Positions 9,012 through 28,062 of a stretch of DNA of 33,370 nt are shown here, piece after piece. The notes below the pieces were generated by a model, which ran no database searches, was not told the origin of the DNA, and saw only the letters and a list, made by a program, of their open reading frames with translations. The stretch is from Methylococcales bacterium OPU3_GD_OMZ (lineage in GTDB: Bacteria; Pseudomonadota; Gammaproteobacteria; Methylococcales; Methylomonadaceae), in the NCBI GenBank assembly GCA_001901525.1, contig MPSY01000007.1, forward strand, positions 1 to 33,370, given 5' to 3'. Both the position numbers and the translations under genes were made by a program. Each line of letters begins with the position of its first letter. Within the stretch, counting starts at the first letter, position 1.

Positions 9012-10052
9012 ATGTCTGAACTAGTCTACTCAAATTCTCACGCTGCAGGCGATGCTTATCGTCTCGTTTCACGGCTACAATTAACTTTTGTAAACGGCCT
9101 TGAAACTGTCGCTCGGTCTGTTGGAATACCGTGTGAAATGCATAATTCTGAATGGTTTCGTGACCAGGGTAGCCACGGCGGCGGCAACCGCTTTGGTTTA
9201 ACCGGTCCGCTTTTTAATCGAAGTTCTGTCAATATTTCCCAAGTACATTATGATGATTTACCCGGCAAAAAACTCGGTTCAGCAACGGCCCTTTCAACGA
9301 TTATTCACCCCAACAATCCATTGGCCCCTTCTTTACATTTGCACCTTAGTTGGACTGAATTTAAAAACAAAACGGGGTTTTGGCGGTTGATGGCCGATTT
9401 AAACCCGGCAATTGAAGACAATCATGCAACACAGACCTTTAATAACTGCCTTAAAACCGTCGCTTCCAAAAGTTATTTAGAGGCTAGTTTACAAGGAGAC
9501 CGGTATTTTTATATTCCGGTACTCAAACGCCACCGCGGCGTTGCGCATTTTTACCTTGAAGGTTATCAAACAGAACGCCCTGAGTCGGATAGCCAGTTTG
9601 CCGGTGCTTTCGGGCAAGCGGTCATTCGTTGTTACTTAACACTACTAAAACAAGCCGTCACACGATCGGGCGTCATCACCGAAGCACACTACCAACAACA
9701 ACTGGATTATCACACCTTATATTTTCTGCAAGTTTTAACACTGGATCGCGGCACAACTTCAGGATTACTCATCCATAACCAAAACGATATTGGCATTTTA
9801 GCGTCACTGCCAGCCAACATTAATAAACCCTTACTGACAATGTGGCAGAAAAAATTACCACCGCCTCAAAACCAGCTATTAGCTAACATTCTCGCCGTTT
9901 TACCCGAACAGAGCCTCTGCCCTATAGACGATCACACTAAAAAGATGATTGCTACGACTGTCCGTTGTCATTATCAAAACCATCCGGAAGCCATTGATCT
10001 TCAGGCTAACGCTGCAAAAACAACACACACGGTTGCCAATCACCGCGGTTAA
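9012..10052 (+). CDS. Divergent coproporphyrinogen III oxidase (HemF)-like protein
   Basis: The 346-residue product shows the fold signature of oxygen-dependent coproporphyrinogen oxidase (HemF/CPOX). It has GGGNRF at about 56-61, SVNISQVH at 72-79, the IIHPNNPLAPSLHLHL block at 97-112, MADLNPAIED at 127-136, and VLTLDRGTTSGLL at 241-253. Against human CPOX recalled from memory, His258 and Asp282 appear kept (His109, Asp129). The DRG near the C-terminus is also kept. The position of Arg262 is Ser113, and the usual GGxFFDDL motif reads VAHFYLEGY (177-185). So it may act on a different tetrapyrrole or have lost activity. It may pair with the divergent radical SAM/MOSC genes. No good Shine-Dalgarno is seen before the ATG. 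Confidence 0.75.
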   Translation: MSELVYSNSHAAGDAYRLVSRLQLTFVNGLETVARSVGIPCEMHNSEWFRDQGSHGGGNRFGLTGPLFNRSSVNISQVHYDDLPGKKLGSATALSTIIHPNNPLAPSLHLHLSWTEFKNKTGFWRLMADLNPAIEDNHATQTFNNCLKTVASKSYLEASLQGDRYFYIPVLKRHRGVAHFYLEGYQTERPESDSQFAGAFGQAVIRCYLTLLKQAVTRSGVITEAHYQQQLDYHTLYFLQVLTLDRGTTSGLLIHNQNDIGILASLPANINKPLLTMWQKKLPPPQNQLLANILAVLPEQSLCPIDDHTKKMIATTVRCHYQNHPEAIDLQANAAKTTHTVANHRG

Positions 10053-10080
10053 CCCTCGGTTTAAATCACCGTGTGTTTTA
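10025..10080. terminator. Hairpin between convergent HemF-like and nhaD genes
   Basis: ACACACGGT (10025-10033) and ACCGTGTGT (10068-10076) form a 9-bp stem, followed by TTTT on the plus strand. A self-complementary ACCGCGGT lies inside the loop. The left arm is in the last codons of the HemF-like gene and the U-run abuts the nhaD stop. This makes a plausible terminator for the plus-strand gene. Confidence 0.45.
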
Positions 10081-11460
10081 TCCGTTGATCAAAAGATGGG
10101 TATAAATACTGGCTATGTACCCTAAAGCAATTGCCCAACTCCAGCGCATATGACCAAAGAAAGTGTAGTTTCCTTTAGATTGTCCCATTAAGGCTACACC
10201 TGCTGCAGACCCGACTGACAATAAACTACCGCCCACTCCAGCCGTTAACGTCACCAATAACCACTGTGAAACATCCATTTCAGGCGACATCGATAAAATA
10301 GCGAACATCACCGGAATATTATCGACCACAGCAGAAAATAAACCGGCCACAATATTGGCTACCGTCGGCCCCCAACCACCATAAACCATTTCAGACACTT
10401 CGGCTAAATAACCCATGGTGCCTAAACCACCGACACAAAAAATGACCCCAAAAAAGAAAAACAAGGTATCCCACTCGGCCTGGGCCACTTTATTAAAAAT
10501 ATTGAATTCACTAATACCAGGATTCTCTTTTTTATCGTGTAATTTAAGATAATAAGAAAAGAAAAATAAATAAGACAGGCCAGTCATCATCCCCAAAAAT
10601 GGCGGTAGATGTAATAACTGCTCAAAACAAACCGCCGTGGCAATGGTCGCAACAAATAACCCACACACAACAAATCCGCCTTTCTTAACCGCTACCGCTG
10701 CACTACTGCTCTCAGGCAAACCAGTAGGAATTGCAAAAACCATAATCAATGCAGGCACCAAGAAATTAACTACGCTAGGAATAAAAAGAGCAAAAAAACC
10801 AAAAAAGTCTACGTGACCTGACTGCCAGACCATTAAGGTTGTAATATCACCAAAGGGACTAAACGCACCCCCCGCATTTGCTGCAACAACAATATTAATA
10901 AACGAAAGGGAGACGAACTTAGGCTTATCAGAACCTACTGCCAGCACCACTGAGCCCATCAAAAGGGCTGTGGTTAAGTTATCGGCAATCGGTGAGATAA
11001 AAAAGGCTAGAAAACCGGTAATCCAAAATAATTTTCGGTAACTGTAGCCTTTCTTAATTAACCAACTCCGAAGCGCTTCAAAAATACCCCGCTCGGTCAT
11101 CGCATTGACATATATCATGGCTGTTAATAAAAACAGCAATAATGCGGAATACTCCAAAAGATTATGATTGAGTGCTGCCTCTACAATTTCATTACCGTGT
11201 TCAACCTGATTACCCAATAATGCAACCAACACCCAAATGGCACCTGCTGCGAGCAAAACCGGCTTGGATTTTCTTAGATGAATAAACTCCTCAGCAATAA
11301 CCAACCCATAAGCAATAACAAAAATAACAATTGCTACCACGCCTAAAGATGACTCTGTTGAATGCAAATTTGTTAACGACGACTCAGACGCTGCTACCGG
11401 CAGTGAAAATATGACCGACATCAACCCTAACAACCAGGCACTATAATACGATTTAACCAA
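10078..11460 (-). CDS. nhaD: NhaD-type Na+/H+ antiporter
   Basis: This is an inner-membrane sodium/proton antiporter of the NhaD family (ArsB/NhaD superfamily), which exports Na+ and Li+. The roughly 460-residue product has a predicted signal-like first segment and about 12 hydrophobic helices. Family motifs are present: SPIADNLTTAL near 158, NAGGAFSPFGDITT near 197 and VVDNIPVMFA near 382. The start is non-ATG. A TTG at 11460 lies 8 nt behind AGGAG, while the TTG two codons upstream (11466) is only 2 nt from it, so 11460 is preferred. It stands alone and is divergent from the hydrolase gene at 11751. The 290-bp gap upstream shows no motif I can name. Confidence 0.93.
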   Translation of the reverse strand: MVKSYYSAWLLGLMSVIFSLPVAASESSLTNLHSTESSLGVVAIVIFVIAYGLVIAEEFIHLRKSKPVLLAAGAIWVLVALLGNQVEHGNEIVEAALNHNLLEYSALLLFLLTAMIYVNAMTERGIFEALRSWLIKKGYSYRKLFWITGFLAFFISPIADNLTTALLMGSVVLAVGSDKPKFVSLSFINIVVAANAGGAFSPFGDITTLMVWQSGHVDFFGFFALFIPSVVNFLVPALIMVFAIPTGLPESSSAAVAVKKGGFVVCGLFVATIATAVCFEQLLHLPPFLGMMTGLSYLFFFSYYLKLHDKKENPGISEFNIFNKVAQAEWDTLFFFFGVIFCVGGLGTMGYLAEVSEMVYGGWGPTVANIVAGLFSAVVDNIPVMFAILSMSPEMDVSQWLLVTLTAGVGGSLLSVGSAAGVALMGQSKGNYTFFGHMRWSWAIALGYIASIYTHLLING

Positions 11461-11750
11461 CTTCAAAACTCCTCAAATTAACAAATACAACGCTCTAAAA
11501 CACACCTCCAGATGAAGTGCTCGTCATATAGAAATAACTTTTATAAATACAACAGAAAAATCATGCGCTACGGCACAATTGACAAAAACTTTGAACTAAA
11601 TTACTCAAAAAGAGATGACTACAAAAAAAACCATGGCTATTATATCAAGAAAACATCAAGATTTTACGCTATAAAATCAATAACATCCTGATAAACAAAG
11701 ATCCTTTCTAGCATTAAAGCCATTATGCTCACATTTAAAGTATTCAAATT

Positions 11751-12298: not shown

Positions 12299-13297
12299 TT
12301 ATGCCCTCACATAACCGTGTGCCTGTATAATTTTACATTTGAATGGGCCTTCCATTTCCGATACCGATTCCATAATCTCAGTTTTACCTAACGGCAATAA
12401 ATACATCTGTAATTTAACACTGACAAAACGCTTTTCCTGTTCCAACGCTAACTGTAAAAACACTTTAGTAATGGTTACAGTACGGTTCTTATTAACCATT
12501 CCCCCCACTACAAAGAAGCGTCCTTCTCTATTTACAAATTGCAGAGAAACTGACAACTGCTCTACCTCTTCATCTTGAAGCCTTTCAAACTTAATATCTT
12601 CTGAATCGTCAGGAAATTTAGCACGCACTTGCGCTATCTCATCAGCACATTGTGCTTTAATCCTAAGTTGTTCAGATTCAACGCGTATACGTCCGTCTAA
12701 GTATTCTTTTATTAATAAAATAATGACAATACTCAAAGTGAGAATACCCCAGAATAAAACACTCCCACCTACCTCCAGAAACTCTATTAACAATAAAATG
12801 GTTATAAAAGTAAATAAGCAATACTTCCAAACAGATGGTTCATAATAGGTTGCTTCCAACATGATTTTATAGCGCTTCTTAATATTTTGCTCAGCATAAA
12901 AACCTTGAGCACCAATATAACTCCGCCACTCCTGAACTTCCTGAACACTGGCAAGGTTACGCTCTTCATCAGAGAGGCTCTTATCGACATCACTGCCGTC
13001 ATTACCTGTGGATCTATCCTCATCCTTTTGTAAATTACTCAATAAAAATATGACTTGCGAGACATTACGTCGATACCAACCCTTACCGGCATCAAAAACA
13101 GCCAGTTGTTCTTTAAGACCTCGAAAAGTTTGCGGGACTGTGATTAAAAACTTGTGTTCAATCACAAAAGGAAAAGGCAAGTCATCTGTATCTTGGTTCA
13201 ATGCTAATTCTTTGGCTTCTGGTTGTTGATTGCTCAACTCTACTTTCACTAAGCCCGGCATAGCCAGGTTCGTGATAATATAAATCCAACCCTTCAT
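12299..13297 (-). CDS. Membrane protein with degenerate GIY-YIG/T5orf172-like N-terminus
   Basis: The first ~90 of 332 residues (GWIYIITN, MPGLVKVEL, ELALNQ, PFPFVIEHKF, GWYRRNVSQ) follow the strand pattern of the T5orf172/MUG113 branch of GIY-YIG domains. The usual VKIG-T...R segment reads VKVELSNQQPEAKEL, so the catalytic arginine appears to be missing. A linker of acidic and charged residues (90-150) leads to two hydrophobic helices at about 157-177 and 178-197. A coiled-coil-prone cytoplasmic stretch (200-240) and a beta-rich C-terminal domain of unknown type (245-332) follow. The domain call is from pattern recognition. A non-nuclease sensing or scaffold role at the membrane is inference. 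The neighbours are unrelated. Confidence 0.6.
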   Translation of the reverse strand: MKGWIYIITNLAMPGLVKVELSNQQPEAKELALNQDTDDLPFPFVIEHKFLITVPQTFRGLKEQLAVFDAGKGWYRRNVSQVIFLLSNLQKDEDRSTGNDGSDVDKSLSDEERNLASVQEVQEWRSYIGAQGFYAEQNIKKRYKIMLEATYYEPSVWKYCLFTFITILLLIEFLEVGGSVLFWGILTLSIVIILLIKEYLDGRIRVESEQLRIKAQCADEIAQVRAKFPDDSEDIKFERLQDEEVEQLSVSLQFVNREGRFFVVGGMVNKNRTVTITKVFLQLALEQEKRFVSVKLQMYLLPLGKTEIMESVSEMEGPFKCKIIQAHGYVRA

Positions 13298-13444: not shown

Positions 13445-15481
13445 TTAAAGAGCCGAAATAACCCCATCCAGCTTTTTCCAATCAACAGGTAACTCCAAGT
13501 AATAACTAAATACATCAGATCTTAACCGGTGTGACTCAGATTCATTATTACTTGCATTTTCTAAAGCAACCACTGGCATTATAGGTTTCTTTGTATCCAA
13601 AAACAGCTTTAATCGATCTTCTTGACTGGTCTGATATAAATGTAAATTTATTATCATCAAATCATAATCTTTTAATTGGAGCTTTTCAAATGCTCCAACA
13701 CAGGTATCTATAGCATCCACATAATAGCCTTTTTTTTGTAAAATACTTTTCAACCAATGTGTGTTGACAACAATATCATCAACAACCAAGACCCTAATTA
13801 CTTTGTCCTTATTTTCAAAGACCTCTGCTTTAAATTGATACCCCCCCAACCAATCAATTGCTAAATGCTGTTGCAAACAATTAAATAATGCTTCCAGGCT
13901 CACTGGTTTCGTTAAAAATCCTGCACCTCCTGCAACTGTAAAAGCGGCTTTACCTTCCTTTGAGGCACTGGCAGACATAGCGATAACAATCCCATGATTA
14001 TTATTTTCATTTAATTTTTCAGTCGTCTCAATACCATTCAAACCCGGCATTTTCAAATCCATAAAAATAAGGTCCGGTTTAACACTGTTAACAGACGCCA
14101 AACATTGCTCACCACTTGCTACTGAAAAAACATTAAAGCCTTTTTCAAACAAGAGATCTTCCATAAAAAGTCGATTTGCTAAATTATCATCCACTACCAT
14201 AATCGTTTGTTCCAATCCCTTATAACCAAGGGGCATTACCGCCGCCGACTCCTCAACAGTCAATTGATTCACCGATTCAAGCACAAGCGTAAATTCAAAA
14301 ATACTGCCTTCATTAACGACAGAATTTACCCTAATCTCTGAATCTAAAATCTCTATGATTTTTTTACAAATAGAAAGCCCTAAACCCATCCCCGGGTTAG
14401 CTTTCAAGGAAAACGACTGATAGTACGGGTCAAAAATACTTTCCATATCAACCACAGATATTCCCCTCCCCGTATCCTCAACTTGAAAACAAAATTGATT
14501 ATCGTTCTGGTAAACCCTTAAATAAACAATACCGACTTCAGTAAACTTGACCGCATTAGTGACTAAATTAATTAATAACTGTCTAAGTAATTTCGCATCT
14601 CCTAAAACATATTTCGGTAAGTCATTTAATAGTGCTAATTTAAATTCAATCTGTTTTTCCTGACATTGTTGTATTGCAATTTGCTCTACCCCAGATAACA
14701 ACTCTAGCAAATTAAATTTTTTATAAACGACATCAATCGCATCCTTATCATGCACCCCGATTGCCAATAGGTCATCGATCATTAATAATAGCGAATCACC
14801 GCATTGGTGAATAATAGCCAATTTTTCCTTTTGCGCAGCCGTTAACTTTTGGTCATCTTCTAAGAGTTGGGTAAACCCTAACAAGCCGTGTAATGGTGTC
14901 TTTAATTCATGACTAACATGCGCTATAAACTCACTTTTTACATTGTCAGACCTTTTTAACTTCAACGTTCTTTGTTCTACCTCTTGGTCTAAATTGGCAG
15001 TAAGTTCGATTAATTGTTCTTTCGTTGCTTCATGCACTGAAATTTCATTTATTAAATGCTTATTCAATTCAACTAAGTCATCTGCAGAAGGAACTTTCAA
15101 CAATCTAGGTAACAATGGCCAAAGCATAACGGCTGTAACCGCTGAAACTAAAGCAGTAAAAACCTTGATCCATGCTGATAATTCATAAATCGGTGTCCAA
15201 ACCGTGACGGCTGATAATGCATGCGTTGCACCACAGGCAAAGATAAACAGACTAAATGCCAAGATTACACGATTAAAACTAATATCTTGACGTTTAAAAA
15301 CGAATAATGCCAAAGAAGATGCAATTGAAATATAAGCTAAGGTGATCACAATATCTGATATAACAAACATCGATAAAATATCATTTTGCCATTGAAAACA
15401 CATACCATGCGGCATATAAGACTTAGTATCGAATAGCGATCGAAAGAATGCTAACATAATTAAACCATTACTTTTAGTCAA
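13445..15481 (-). CDS. Hybrid histidine kinase with ethylene-receptor-like sensor
   Basis: Three N-terminal transmembrane helices (about 35-60, 70-90, 100-125) match the ethylene-binding domain of plant ETR1. Asp43, Cys83 and His87 (in CGATH) correspond to ETR1 Asp25, Cys65 and His69 with identical spacing. In ETR1 the Cys and His hold the copper that binds ethylene. A coiled coil (150-178) leads to HisKA with phospho-acceptor His191 (HVSHELKTP). The ATPase domain has an N-box LINLVTNAVKF (303-313), G1 EDTGRG and G2 GMGLGL. Receiver 1 (426-540) has Asp475 and Lys525. Receiver 2 (563-678) has Asn612 where the phospho-Asp should be. The first codon is TTG; ATG at 15457 is an alternative. It is second in a cassette, 82 bp behind the Cache-REC-Hpt gene. 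Confidence 0.85.
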   Translation of the reverse strand: MTKSNGLIMLAFFRSLFDTKSYMPHGMCFQWQNDILSMFVISDIVITLAYISIASSLALFVFKRQDISFNRVILAFSLFIFACGATHALSAVTVWTPIYELSAWIKVFTALVSAVTAVMLWPLLPRLLKVPSADDLVELNKHLINEISVHEATKEQLIELTANLDQEVEQRTLKLKRSDNVKSEFIAHVSHELKTPLHGLLGFTQLLEDDQKLTAAQKEKLAIIHQCGDSLLLMIDDLLAIGVHDKDAIDVVYKKFNLLELLSGVEQIAIQQCQEKQIEFKLALLNDLPKYVLGDAKLLRQLLINLVTNAVKFTEVGIVYLRVYQNDNQFCFQVEDTGRGISVVDMESIFDPYYQSFSLKANPGMGLGLSICKKIIEILDSEIRVNSVVNEGSIFEFTLVLESVNQLTVEESAAVMPLGYKGLEQTIMVVDDNLANRLFMEDLLFEKGFNVFSVASGEQCLASVNSVKPDLIFMDLKMPGLNGIETTEKLNENNNHGIVIAMSASASKEGKAAFTVAGGAGFLTKPVSLEALFNCLQQHLAIDWLGGYQFKAEVFENKDKVIRVLVVDDIVVNTHWLKSILQKKGYYVDAIDTCVGAFEKLQLKDYDLMIINLHLYQTSQEDRLKLFLDTKKPIMPVVALENASNNESESHRLRSDVFSYYLELPVDWKKLDGVISAL

Positions 15482-15563: not shown

Positions 15564-17873
15564 CTAGTCCTCAGCCATCACCTCACTATTAATAGCGGCT
15601 AACACGGCCTGTAATTCTTTCTCAACCACCCCAAGTCCCGCTTCTAAAACGGTTACCGAAATTTGATCTTGCCGACAAAAATTAGCTAACTCCTGCGTTT
15701 TTAACGCCAGCTTTTCAGCGCCAATAATAATTGCACTTGTTTCCAAATTATGTACCTGTTTTATTAACTGATCCTTCTGACCCGTACTCAAAGAAACCTT
15801 GATTAAGTCTCCAAAATATTCAAATTGTTCCCTAAAAGTAGCTAATAATAATTGAAATATTTCCCTATCGCCATGGCAGTAAGCAATTCCTCGCGTACCA
15901 TTCAAAGATTGCTGTTTCGTTAACGGAATATTTGAAAATTGTAGAATATCAGCCTCGACAAGGTTATCTTTTTTATCAGTACCCAACGGCTCAGAAAACC
16001 ATGTGGCAAGCAAAAAAAATAATTGTTCAAACGGTTGCCCTTTATTAAAACAGCCACAAAAAGTGTCGCCTGTGAAGGGTATCGTTTCACTGTTTAAATT
16101 TGAGGCTGAGATAATAACAATAGGTAATCGTTTTAAATTTGCTTGTGTCCTAATGCTCTCTCTTAACGTCCAACCATCCGTGTCGGGTAAATTCAAATCC
16201 AACAGCACAGCATCAAAACTATGTGTTTCCAACTGTACCCACATCTCACCACCTGAACCTGCACCTACCGAAATCAAGCCGTAACTCTCACAAACTTCAT
16301 GCAATAATTTACGACTGACAATATCGTCTTCAACAAGTAATACTTTTCGACCTCTCAGTTGCGATCTAACGACGCTCATATCTTGACCCTGTTCAAACTC
16401 TGAAGAACATAAACAGGAATGTCCATAGTCCTCCACACCTAATGCACTCGCCTGCGCTAAACCATCCTTCACTACCTTGTCGTGATAATTATCATTTAAT
16501 AATTCCATCGCATGTTTTAGGTATTGGTCACGTCTAAGTAACTCTTCAGATATGCGAGCGATAACATCCTTCTGCTCTTTGTTAGAGTTGTCAGCGACAA
16601 AAGAATTATCTGCTAAAAATTTTGAGAACTCACCATCCAAAGTTTTGTATTCAACAAGCTGATTATCAATAAGTCTTAATGGCTTTAAGATGTAACGATT
16701 AATGTGCCAATAAACAAATGCAATAAAAATCAACACAATACTAATTTGCAACTGATTAATATTGCTAAAAAATGTAGAAACAGAAAAAAGATCAGAGCGA
16801 TCTACTGAAATAACGATAGTCCATTGCAAAGACGGAATCAGCTGAGAAAAAACCAACATTGGACCGGATGCCTCTGCATCTATTAGTAACGGTTCCAGCA
16901 AATGCAAAGATGAAACCTTACTCTTTTTAACTTGTAAACTACTGGCAATGAGCAAACCTTCTTCAAAAGTTATCTCACCACTATTATTACTCATTTCCAT
17001 TGCTAATCGCCTGATTTCTGGTTGCTGTTTTACCGCATCAATTCGTTGTTTACGGTGCGTCTCCAACACTGCGCTAACTTGTCTAAACTCAACATTATGA
17101 AAAAAACCATCGGTCACCGGCATTTCATTTTCTAATGAATCAATAGCAGGCATAGCAATTAATTGCAGATTCCGGTCAACAAAAAAGACATGTCTACGGT
17201 AGCGATCCTTGATAGCTTTTAATAATTCACTCAACCCTTCAAGTTTGACATCAACCGTTGAAACCCCAATAAATTTTCCGTCATTAATAATGGGTGCCGT
17301 CGCTGTTACCATCGGTTGCATCGAGTAAGGGTCCGTATAAGATTTTGACCAATACACTTCACCCGGTTCTTTATAACGTGCCGGTACATACCACTCCTGA
17401 TGATGATAGCCGGGACCGTCTATTAAATTATAATCATCATAAAAAATTAATTGATTATTTTTATCTCGCCCCCAAAAATAGCTATCCCGCTCTTTTTCAA
17501 TATTAAACTGAAAAGGCTCCGGCCAGATACCTCCGCCGGCAATTAAATATTCTGACCCGGGCGTTTCCATGATTGACTTAATAATCGGTTTGATGATGCG
17601 ACTCTGTTCAGTGGAAACAGCGGGCATTAATTTAGCCGCATTTGCAAGGGACTGAGCGGTAGTAGCTGCGCGCTCCAAATGCTCATTTATTGCAAGTACG
17701 ATACGGTTCATTTCCTTAGAGGCACTTTTTCTTAACTCTTCGTCTCTTTCTGGCTCAATCCAAAATTTTAAAGCCAGTACAAACAACAGTGTGCCCACCA
17801 TTGTAAAAACCAAAAAAGTTAATATTACTCGAACACGTTGTTTGTGTGAGCCCACTTGAAACACTTTATTCAT
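15564..17873 (-). CDS. Cache-sensor membrane protein with receiver and Hpt domains
   Basis: The 769-residue product has transmembrane helices at about 16-38 and 374-392 flanking a large periplasmic dCache-like sensor. That sensor carries WYVPARYKEPGEVYWSKSY at 161-179 and a TATAPI strand at 190-195. A linker leads to a receiver domain (508-625) with acidic pocket Glu515/Asp516/Asp517, phospho-acceptor Asp559 (LLDLNLPD) and Lys611. A C-terminal Hpt domain (about 655-765) has His708 in QVHNLETSA. No histidine kinase or output domain is present, which is unusual for a Cache-anchored protein. It probably takes part in a phosphorelay with the adjacent hybrid kinase. AGAGG precedes the ATG. The ligand is unknown; Cache domains often bind small organic molecules. 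Confidence 0.85.
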   Translation of the reverse strand: MNKVFQVGSHKQRVRVILTFLVFTMVGTLLFVLALKFWIEPERDEELRKSASKEMNRIVLAINEHLERAATTAQSLANAAKLMPAVSTEQSRIIKPIIKSIMETPGSEYLIAGGGIWPEPFQFNIEKERDSYFWGRDKNNQLIFYDDYNLIDGPGYHHQEWYVPARYKEPGEVYWSKSYTDPYSMQPMVTATAPIINDGKFIGVSTVDVKLEGLSELLKAIKDRYRRHVFFVDRNLQLIAMPAIDSLENEMPVTDGFFHNVEFRQVSAVLETHRKQRIDAVKQQPEIRRLAMEMSNNSGEITFEEGLLIASSLQVKKSKVSSLHLLEPLLIDAEASGPMLVFSQLIPSLQWTIVISVDRSDLFSVSTFFSNINQLQISIVLIFIAFVYWHINRYILKPLRLIDNQLVEYKTLDGEFSKFLADNSFVADNSNKEQKDVIARISEELLRRDQYLKHAMELLNDNYHDKVVKDGLAQASALGVEDYGHSCLCSSEFEQGQDMSVVRSQLRGRKVLLVEDDIVSRKLLHEVCESYGLISVGAGSGGEMWVQLETHSFDAVLLDLNLPDTDGWTLRESIRTQANLKRLPIVIISASNLNSETIPFTGDTFCGCFNKGQPFEQLFFLLATWFSEPLGTDKKDNLVEADILQFSNIPLTKQQSLNGTRGIAYCHGDREIFQLLLATFREQFEYFGDLIKVSLSTGQKDQLIKQVHNLETSAIIIGAEKLALKTQELANFCRQDQISVTVLEAGLGVVEKELQAVLAAINSEVMAED

Positions 17874-24647: not shown

Positions 24648-26549
24648 TTATTGTGCATCCGCCACCGGTGCCGAAATACCATCTAAAACGAGCGATGCCA
24701 CAGTAGAACCCGTTAATGCTTCTAAAAAATATACCAACGCCTTTTTCTCTTGTCCGGTTAAATGCAAAGGCACAATAAGCGGATCTAGATCTGGGTTTTC
24801 AATCCCCCCCTGATCATAAAAATTTACCACTTGTTGCAAGGTGGAAAACTGACCATTATGCATATAAGGGGCAGTCAGTGAAATATTTCGTAACGACGGC
24901 GTTCGATAACGCCATTTATCTTTCGGGTCTTGCGTGACTTCATAACGCCCCAAATCGCTTACCTTTTGCTCGCTTACCGTAGCAATCAAAGCACTGTCTA
25001 CCGTGACAAACTGTCCTGGCGCTAACTGAACCCGTTGCTGACTGGGTTTAGACTTAAGAGCCTCTTGATAACCCAAACCGGTATTATGCCACTGCTCATC
25101 GGTAAATAATGCCGTTTGGTCGGTCAGCCGGTGACAATTTGCACAGCGCGCCTTTCCTACAAACAATCGATACCCTTGTTGCGCTAAAGGGGTTAAAGCA
25201 TCCTTCTGGTCGTCAAAAAACCAACGATCAAAGCGAGAATCAGCCGCGTTCAAGGTACGCTCATAACTGGCAATCGCCATAGCGACCGTTTCCATGCTGA
25301 CACCGCGCTTAAAAGCGCGTTGAAATAAACCCGCATAATCAGCACTTACCTTTATTTTTTCAACCACATAACCAATGGAAGGATTCGCCATTTCATTAGC
25401 CGCTAACAACGGCCCCCAAACCTGATTTTCCAAACTGGTTTCCCGCCCGTCATGAAATAACGTGACATTAAAGGCAACATTAAAAAGACTCGGTGCATTA
25501 CGCCTGACGGTACGACCTTCAAAACCAACCGCTGTTTTCAGTTGATTATTAGTGAAGCCCTGCTCAGGAATATGACACATGGCACATGAAAAAGTATTAT
25601 TTAACGAGAGGCGTCGATCATAAAACAACTTCCGCCCTAACTGTACTTTGTCTTTAGTTAGCGGATTATTAGCGGGTACCGGAATAGCCGGTAACCCTAA
25701 CGGGGGCTGTTTGACGGTACTGAGTAAGTCAAACGGTTGCTCCATACCGTCAATCAAAGCATCAAATTCTTGTTGAAAAGGTATTTTTTCATTGTCAGCA
25801 AATGTCTGAAGTCTTGTCTGGCGCCATAACGCCTCACGCTTTAGAAGACTACCAAAACGCTCACTCTCCTTCGCAACAGCGCTAAGCACCGTTTTAACAT
25901 CATTGATGACGGTTTCTGGATGTAAAAAGGCAACACTATAGATATTTCTGATCCGTTTGGTTCGATCAATTAAAAAAACGCGTAATTGATGGGAAAAGGT
26001 CCCCGTGAATAGCCCCTGTTGATCATAATTCTTTTTTACCGACTGCCCATAGCCATCTAGTATAGGGGTTAACTGATCATCAGACCTTGTCGTTAAAAAC
26101 TGCCAATCAATCCCCTGCCCCTGAAACCCCTGACTATACTGCTGCATTTTCTCCGGCGTATCGTACTGCGGATTAAAACTCAATGTTAATAACCGTAGCT
26201 GTTGGCTGATTTCCGGTGCTTTTGCCAATTGACGTTTTATTTTATGAAAAACGGCTGTGGCTAACGGGCAACCATTAACATCGCCACAAGTCGAATAAAT
26301 AAAACTCAGTAAAACAATTTTATCCCCCATGAGTTGATGCAATGACAACGCATCCCCTTGGCTATTGAGGATGGAGCCATCAGTAGCACGGCCCAAGGCA
26401 GGTAAACGATAGCTCCCCGGTGCCGGCGCTGGGTAATGTAAGGCCCGATAACCCGGGGCCAGTACTTCAGAGCGGCCCGAATCACCTTGTACCGGAGCAC
26501 TCAACACACAAGCTGTGAGTACCAGCCCCCAGAGTTGAACTGTTGTCAT
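24648..26549 (-). CDS. SCO1/SenC - di-haem cytochrome c peroxidase (MauG-like) fusion
   Basis: A signal peptide (about 1-22) precedes a SCO1/SenC thioredoxin-like copper-handling domain (about 50-225). Its cysteines are Cys88 and Cys94 (STCGDVNGCP), a CX5C instead of the usual CX3C, and the distal His is His187. A di-haem peroxidase domain (about 270-620) follows, with haem sites CAMCH (322-326) and CANCH (469-473) and a PYMHNGQF segment near 560. It lies 70 bp behind the methanethiol oxidase gene. SCO and MauG-like functions are known companions of that enzyme and are thought to help its copper loading or maturation. Here the two are one polypeptide. It is periplasmic, and probably the second gene of a three-gene operon. 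Confidence 0.88.
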   Translation of the reverse strand: MTTVQLWGLVLTACVLSAPVQGDSGRSEVLAPGYRALHYPAPAPGSYRLPALGRATDGSILNSQGDALSLHQLMGDKIVLLSFIYSTCGDVNGCPLATAVFHKIKRQLAKAPEISQQLRLLTLSFNPQYDTPEKMQQYSQGFQGQGIDWQFLTTRSDDQLTPILDGYGQSVKKNYDQQGLFTGTFSHQLRVFLIDRTKRIRNIYSVAFLHPETVINDVKTVLSAVAKESERFGSLLKREALWRQTRLQTFADNEKIPFQQEFDALIDGMEQPFDLLSTVKQPPLGLPAIPVPANNPLTKDKVQLGRKLFYDRRLSLNNTFSCAMCHIPEQGFTNNQLKTAVGFEGRTVRRNAPSLFNVAFNVTLFHDGRETSLENQVWGPLLAANEMANPSIGYVVEKIKVSADYAGLFQRAFKRGVSMETVAMAIASYERTLNAADSRFDRWFFDDQKDALTPLAQQGYRLFVGKARCANCHRLTDQTALFTDEQWHNTGLGYQEALKSKPSQQRVQLAPGQFVTVDSALIATVSEQKVSDLGRYEVTQDPKDKWRYRTPSLRNISLTAPYMHNGQFSTLQQVVNFYDQGGIENPDLDPLIVPLHLTGQEKKALVYFLEALTGSTVASLVLDGISAPVADAQ

Positions 26550-26619: not shown

Positions 26620-27957
26620 CTAACGATACAATGAAAAAGCCCCAAACCGCATCTGGTGTGGGCGACCTAATTTTTCTTGCGTAAAATCAATAGCAAACTG
26701 TTGTTTCAATGCGCTACCATCCCAATGATAAAGCTTTAGAAACTGTTCATTATCTTGCCCTTTTTTATCCCAGTTGGCGAGCAATGAGGAAGTATAATAA
26801 AGACGTTTTCCATCCCAACTTGATGACACCATATTGACTTGTGCACCAATCTTCTTTTCATAAATTTGCTTGGGATTAAAGGGATCCGAAATATCAAAAC
26901 CTCGAGTCTTGCCATCCATAAAGGTATTAACCCATAACAGTTGATCATCACTCTGAATTGAAATATCAACCGGCAACGGTATTTTGGAAGGATCACCGAT
27001 ATCAGCAACTTCTTTGCTTTGCCACTGGCCCTGAGCATCTTCATAAATTAACCATATTTTTGATGTTAACGCTGTCGAGGTAAAACAATAATTATGCTCA
27101 GGTTTTAAAGCACAACGAATTTCCAAGGGAGCCCCTGGAACATCAAAAACTTTAACCGGCTGACGCGTCTTCAAATTCCATTGCACCATCGTGGAACCAA
27201 ACTGTTTCATCGCCGTTTGATCACTTAACATCTTGCCAAAATCCATCATATAATTGGACCATCCGGTAAACGATGAAGTCAGCATAAGATTGCGCCGAGG
27301 CAGTACCCGTACGTCGTAATTATAACCATCCGCATACTGACCGGTTTTCACCGCACCATTCAATTGACTATCTGTTGGCACCCAATGCGTTGCAATATAG
27401 TCACCACTGTTTGTATATTCAACTAACGCACCACGACCACCATGATCCTTATTATTAGATAACGCCGTCATCATCATCCGGCCCGGCAACGCATAAGTAG
27501 TATGCGGCCCAACGGCTCCACCACTTTTAGCCACAAAATCAGTAATGACTTTATGCAACTTAGGCTTGGCTGGATTAGAGTACACATCAAAAATAAAGAT
27601 CTTACTGGTGTCTAAGCCTGCCGCCCAAAGATAACGACGGTCATCGGTAAAACCTGAGTGATGGGCTTCATTGCGCCCCCCGACCGAACGCGTATGAATC
27701 ACTTTGCCGTAGTTATCTGAACTCGGTCTCACATCAACCGTCACTAATTTATCCTGTTCATCACCCACCCCTTTAACCCCTAGGGTCCATACATACACAA
27801 AATCTTCTTGTCCTGAAATCTTTGCCATATACGGTGACTGACAGGTTTCATCTGCCTGGGTCACGGTTGGTAACACCCCTAATAACAAAAAAATGCTAAT
27901 ACTGGCTGAAAATACACCCAACCTTCTCATACTATTTTTCTTAAAAAAGACTTTCAT
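26620..27957 (-). CDS. mtoX: Methanethiol oxidase, selenium-binding protein 56 family
   Basis: The roughly 445-residue product belongs to the SBP56 family. Bacterial MtoX converts methanethiol with O2 and water to formaldehyde, H2S and H2O2 and is a periplasmic copper enzyme. A signal peptide (MRRLGVFSASISIFLLLGVL...) is present near the N-terminus. Family segments include GGRNEAHHSGFTDDRRYLWA with paired histidines, GPHTTYALPGRMMMTALSN, SFTGWSNYMMDFGKML, and near the end KLGRPHQMRFG. The start is put at ATG 27957 behind GTGAGGTC; an in-frame GTG exists at 27969. Linkage to a SCO/MauG protein strengthens the call over other SBP56 roles. It is divergent from a GlxA-type regulator. The formaldehyde product would suit a methylotroph. 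Confidence 0.88.
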   Translation of the reverse strand: MKVFFKKNSMRRLGVFSASISIFLLLGVLPTVTQADETCQSPYMAKISGQEDFVYVWTLGVKGVGDEQDKLVTVDVRPSSDNYGKVIHTRSVGGRNEAHHSGFTDDRRYLWAAGLDTSKIFIFDVYSNPAKPKLHKVITDFVAKSGGAVGPHTTYALPGRMMMTALSNNKDHGGRGALVEYTNSGDYIATHWVPTDSQLNGAVKTGQYADGYNYDVRVLPRRNLMLTSSFTGWSNYMMDFGKMLSDQTAMKQFGSTMVQWNLKTRQPVKVFDVPGAPLEIRCALKPEHNYCFTSTALTSKIWLIYEDAQGQWQSKEVADIGDPSKIPLPVDISIQSDDQLLWVNTFMDGKTRGFDISDPFNPKQIYEKKIGAQVNMVSSSWDGKRLYYTSSLLANWDKKGQDNEQFLKLYHWDGSALKQQFAIDFTQEKLGRPHQMRFGAFSLYR

Positions 27958-28062
27958 CACTGACCTCACAGCTAATTAACTAAAAAAACAGCTCTTTATT
28001 ATTCAACATTAATCATTTCAGACCGCACCTTAATAGGCTGCCATATGCTATCGCACCATGCA

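Follow-up and report, generated by a model that had tools for sequence, protein, structure and literature searches.

An ETR1-type hybrid histidine kinase with alanine at a pocket proline position, predicted in a Methylococcales methanotroph

Introduction

Could a methane-oxidizing bacterium perceive ethylene? The question is raised by a gene in a 33,370-nucleotide stretch of the genome of Methylococcales bacterium OPU3_GD_OMZ (contig MPSY01000007.1, positions 1 to 33,370); this whole stretch is called the window below. The N-terminus of the encoded histidine kinase resembles that of the plant ethylene receptor ETR1. The host genome comprises 2.1 Mb in 304 contigs and carries pmoA. Methane monooxygenase co-oxidises ethylene to epoxyethane, and ppm levels of the gas are inhibitory to methanotrophs (PMC11507031, 2024). 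That 2024 study mentions no receptor, and a literature search on methanotrophs and ethylene receptors returned nothing on topic by title or abstract. Domains of the ETR1 type are known in many proteobacteria and in cyanobacteria (PMC7700396, PMC11819568), and two bacterial members, SynEtr1 and AzoEtr1, have been reported as ethylene receptors (PMC11819568). By its sequence, the protein of the window is a bacterial sensor kinase of the ethylene-receptor type; it belongs to a known kind, of which it is a somewhat unusual member.

Results and Discussion

The open reading frame occupies positions 13445-15481 of the minus strand and encodes 678 amino acid residues from a TTG codon; the plus strand across the same positions contains many stops. 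The start is most likely the ATG at 15457 rather than the TTG at 15481, because the orthologues of the genus begin with MLAFFQSI.DTKS in register with M9 of the TTG numbering. The hybrid histidine kinase gene is given here as 13445..15457 (minus strand), which corresponds to 670 residues. Residue numbers count from the ATG, and the TTG numbering is higher by eight (D35 = D43, C75 = C83, H79 = H87). The order of the Pfam domains is ETR1_N, HisKA, HATPase and two receivers. The first-pass annotation had called the protein a histidine kinase, and with HisKA, HATPase_c and both receivers matched it is of the hybrid type.

The three-helix membrane sensor domain ETR1_N is located at 15092..15379 (minus strand; Pfam PF25487, E 7.9e-31), and a second scan gave the same coordinates. 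The match spans residues 27-122 and reaches 106.6 bits, compared with a curated cut-off of 27. Over about 130 residues the domain is 40-53% identical to ETR1_N relatives from many phyla. This identity and the E-value place the likeness to ETR1 far beyond chance. The N-terminus had previously been aligned with ETR1 by eye; the Pfam match, which is independent of that alignment, bears it out and assigns the domain to ETR1_N and to no unrelated sensor family. A prediction of the three helices had also been suggested, and AlphaFold2 with 41 homologues gave three long helices at residues 25-55, 62-85 and 91-121 (mean pLDDT 88.6, helices mostly above 90). Among solved structures the sequence matched none by phmmer or profile search, and Foldseek returned none under E 0.001. 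The missing structural template says nothing against membership of ETR1_N.

It is important to compare the binding residues with those of ETR1. Seven residues of ETR1 are reportedly needed for ethylene binding, in work of Wang et al. from 2006: D25, Y32, I35, P36, I62, C65 and H69. In an alignment with the Arabidopsis ETR1 sequence, the window domain keeps six of these seven, and the equivalents of K91, T94, S98, A102 and P110 are kept as well. The codons lie on the minus strand: the Asp corresponding to D25 at 15353..15355 (D35; D43 from the TTG), the Cys and His corresponding to the copper ligands C65 and H69 at 15233..15235 (C75; C83) and 15221..15223 (H79; H87), and the deviating residue, an Ala at the position of P36, at 15320..15322 (A46; A54). 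The residues listed by the first-pass annotation (Asp43, Tyr50, Ile53, Cys83 and His87, now D35, Y42, I45, C75 and H79) are all present at the ETR1 spacing. That list was incomplete, as I62 is also kept (I72) and the change of P36 to Ala had been missed.

The deviation at P36 is unusual. Of 100 domains compared, 94 have Pro at this position, five have Ser and one, from an incomplete row, has Phe; none has Ala. The sample was gathered partly by C..H motif patterns, which biases the counts of Cys and His; P36, however, figured in no search pattern. One source counts ETR1 P36 as essential for the binding of ethylene (PMC6586836), and another states that binding requires seven ETR1 residues (PMC11819568). 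The substitution P36L in tomato ETR3 leads to ethylene insensitivity (PMC6727826). No published report of a change of P36 to Ala was found. Judged from these residues, copper binding by the window domain is likely, and ethylene binding is doubtful.

The known receptors help to define the protein further. Plant ETR1 has the same three-helix domain with the residues named above. The window protein differs from it in the Ala at P36, in its bacterial membrane location, in the lack of a GAF domain and in having two receivers instead of one. AzoEtr1 of Azospirillum is likewise a bacterial histidine kinase, whose N-terminal ETR1_N domain bears the Cys and His ligands (PMC11819568), and the domain of A. 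brasilense ATCC 49958 (L106) is approximately 42-44% identical to that of the window. However, AzoEtr1 has all seven binding residues (as seen in L106), a PAS domain, no receivers and demonstrated ethylene binding, while the window protein has the Ala at P36, no PAS domain and two receivers. SynEtr1 (Synechocystis slr1212) is likewise described as an ETR1-type domain on a histidine kinase that signals by phosphorelay (PMC11819568). It differs in that it is also light-sensing and found in a phototroph.

The kinase part appears complete. The HisKA dimerisation and phospho-acceptor domain with His183 is found at 14762..14938 (Pfam E 2.3e-17) and the HATPase_c catalytic domain, with N and G boxes, at 14279..14602 (E 5.4e-23), both on the minus strand. 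The motifs are intact: H183, the N box at 294, DTGRG at 328, GMGLG at 356, D467 and TKP at 516. The first receiver (Response_reg, 13877..14203, minus strand) has its DD, phospho-Asp and Lys. In the second receiver-like domain (a second Response_reg stretch, 13448..13795, minus strand), Asn replaces the phospho-Asp in the motif IINLHL, and this domain is probably not phosphorylated. The residue at this position is Asp in the orthologues of G001, G002 and G004, three of the four other genomes of the genus (G001-G004).

The upstream gene at 15564..17873 (minus strand) encodes a dCache sensor, a membrane helix, a receiver (Pfam dCache_1 and Response_reg) and a C-terminal Hpt-like segment, HNLETSA, recognized by eye. 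It is separated from the kinase gene by about 100 bases and likely belongs to the same operon. The C-terminus of this Cache protein reads HNLETSAIIIGAEKL and has no Pfam Hpt match. In the alignment the window and G003 retain the Hpt His, which G001 and G004 lack. A family-wide search found full-length matches to this Cache-REC-Hpt protein only within the host genus. Outside the genus a related Cache region occurs in only three sampled genomes of the family; in one of these (G062) it is located on a complete kinase. On the other side of the kinase gene, the downstream gene at 12299-13297 (minus strand) has no Pfam match; by eye it shows a GIY-YIG-like start and membrane-like stretches. G003 has this gene, which G001 and G004 lack at the corresponding position.

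The observed domain identity, residues, operon-like layout and conservation allow us to propose, at roughly even confidence, that the window protein is a membrane Cu(I) sensor of the ethylene type whose signal enters a phosphorelay shared with the neighbouring Cache-REC-Hpt protein. Within the three N-terminal membrane helices, Cys75 and His79 would hold Cu(I). The copper would bind a small unsaturated molecule, most likely ethylene, though probably less tightly than in ETR1 because the residue at P36 is Ala. Binding of the ligand would shift helix 3 and alter the autophosphorylation of His183. The phosphate may then pass to the first receiver and from there probably on to the Hpt-like end of the Cache-REC-Hpt protein, and one relay would thus join a gas or copper signal with a periplasmic Cache signal. 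Such a sensor could be of use to a methanotroph, whose methane monooxygenase co-oxidises ethylene to a toxic epoxide. This reading is backed by the ETR1_N match and the kinase and receiver domains, six of the seven binding residues, the three-helix prediction, pmoA in the genome, the enrichment of ETR1_N in the family, the toxicity of ethylene to methanotrophs and the two reported bacterial receptors. Counting against it are the Ala at P36, the copper site lost from the orthologues, the H-box deletion or interrupted frames of G002 and G003, the second receiver without its Asp and the Hpt His missing in G001 and G004.

The orthologues deserve closer description. The kinase gene is present in all five genomes of the genus and lies at the same locus as in the window in G001, G003 and G004. 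The four orthologues represent the same gene by kinase similarity and, in these three genomes, also by gene order. Their kinase region (residues 125-540) is 60-78% identical to that of the window, compared with 33-41% for the N-terminal 124 residues, and the sensor domains of G001, G003 and G004 fall below the Pfam cut-off (20-25 bits). All four lack the Cys ligand and the CG-x-TH motif, have Lys for Y32 and an added PAS domain, and show Ala, Thr or Ser, never Pro, at the P36 position. The alignment is uncertain by three residues over helix 2, and no placement yields a Cys. In the tree the four orthologue sensors form one fully supported clade on a long stem, with the window attached beside it at mixed support.

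The synonymous distances suggest recombination. Between the window and G003, dS is 0.36 for the kinase and 1.07 for the sensor, while between G003 and G001 or G004 it is 0.43-0.55 for the sensor and 1.36-1.39 for the kinase. Since the sensor of G003 is close to those of G001 and G004 and its kinase is close to that of the window, the copper-less sensor of G003 and its PAS domain were most likely acquired by recombination, and the window sensor was most likely inherited together with its kinase. A domain swap restoring a canonical sensor in the window lineage was considered and rejected on this G003 pattern; against G001 both the sensor and the kinase of the window are near saturation. The window genes for NhaD and coproporphyrinogen oxidase (9012-11466) have diverged less from G004 (dS 0.16 and 0.22) than from G003. 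The ydcF gene, the Cache gene and the kinase gene of the window are closer to G003 than to G004. These gene-by-gene differences in dS indicate a mosaic ancestry within the genus.

The kinase gene of G003 (L035:7584-9961) is interrupted twice, once in the PAS region and once within the second receiver. The G002 orthologue lacks seven residues of the H-box; each of these lesions was seen in a single assembly. Together with the loss of P36 from the window protein and from every one of its four orthologues, of the Cys ligand from all four orthologues and of the Hpt His from G001 and G004, they speak for a receptor in decay, which would retain the look of ETR1 but have lost its ligand. The two-gene module would then be in the course of loss or re-use in a genus of small genomes, and the kinase, if working, would now serve the Cache signal of the partner protein. 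The evolutionary rates point partly in the same direction. In comparisons with the window, dN/dS is 0.34-0.56 for the Cache partner against 0.07-0.20 for the neighbours ydcF, hemF and NhaD, and the end branch of the window is 1.03 against a median of 0.32. However, the kinase region has a dN/dS of only 0.15-0.31, and the window copy has an open frame, six of the seven binding residues, the K91, T94, S98, A102 and P110 equivalents and all kinase motifs. Decay appears a rather unlikely explanation for the window protein.

In a further explanation the Cys-His site would bind Cu(I), and the signal would be copper itself or a ligand such as CO or acetylene, the pocket having been altered by the change from Pro to Ala. 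The domain retains both copper ligands and the Asp but not the pocket Pro, and the host genome carries pmoA; methanotrophs rely on copper for pMMO. However, no ETR1_N protein is known to sense copper, and the kinase gene has no copper-homeostasis gene next to it; the SCO1-MauG fusion and the methanethiol oxidase gene are some 9-11 kb away. We regard a copper or other-gas sensor as unlikely, more so than decay. The first-pass annotation had pointed to a copper-handling methanethiol oxidase locus near the sensor. The gene at 26620-27969 is clearly a methanethiol oxidase gene, but 11 kb and eight other genes separate it from the kinase gene. The oxidase is 96-98% identical in the three genomes of the genus where it was found, and the sensors of all three lack the Cys ligand; a functional tie is not supported. 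Adjoining the oxidase gene, at 24648-26549 (minus strand), a SCO1/SenC domain is fused to a MauG/MbnH-like di-haem enzyme. At other methanethiol oxidase loci these two are known as separate genes. An unrelated membrane sensor resembling ETR1 by chance is ruled out for practical purposes by an ETR1_N score about four times the curated cut-off and by the identity over the full domain, and no evidence for it was found.

The proposal of an ethylene-type sensor also gains from the distribution of the domain. The novelty once claimed for a working ethylene-receptor domain at this locus has to be given up, since ETR1_N is already widely known and occurs in 28 of 61 relatives from the order of the host. 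It is found in 18 of 32 genomes from other genera of the host family and in five of six from family f4. Genomes sampled from six further families of the order yielded no copy. An even sample of the phylum has it in 22 of 298 genomes (23 of 299 with the host genome), and the excess in the family over this sample corresponds to a Fisher p of about 1e-10, uncorrected for genome size or relatedness. A scan of genome contigs gave more than 570 relatives, the best 80 of which span many phyla. ETR1_N is not rare in the host family.

The host genome contains a second ETR1_N protein, G000:C247 (L002:1510-3379). Its domain is 43% identical to that of the window and, unlike it, keeps all seven binding residues. 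The gene directly precedes a GGDEF-EAL frame, across an assembly gap. Among the other genomes of the genus a copy occurs only in G001, where it is ended by the contig end. Because all seven residues are kept, G000:C247 is, as far as sequence can tell, a better candidate for an ethylene receptor than the window kinase.

Conclusions

An ETR1-type kinase in a methanotroph is a known kind of protein in a setting where the physiology makes sense. Ethylene is a recognised inhibitor of soil methane oxidation, and its perception by methanotrophs is undescribed in the literature searched. As a tentative idea, to which we give less than even weight, methanotrophs as a group may sense ethylene by ETR1-type receptors, and this genus may show the stepwise loss of the copper site of one. 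The pocket Pro would have gone first and the Cys-His site next, a PAS domain would have been gained, and in one genome the copper-less sensor would have arrived by recombination. For the window protein itself the ethylene-receptor reading is weakened by the change of P36 to Ala and by the state of the orthologues with their lost copper site. Better candidates are the paralogue in the same genome and the Pro-keeping proteins of Methylomonas, Methylobacter and Methyloprofundus. The wide occurrence of ETR1_N in the host family and in the Methylococcus family makes the question of ethylene perception directly testable, and within the genus the receptors form a natural series in which the pocket Pro and the copper ligands are present or absent.
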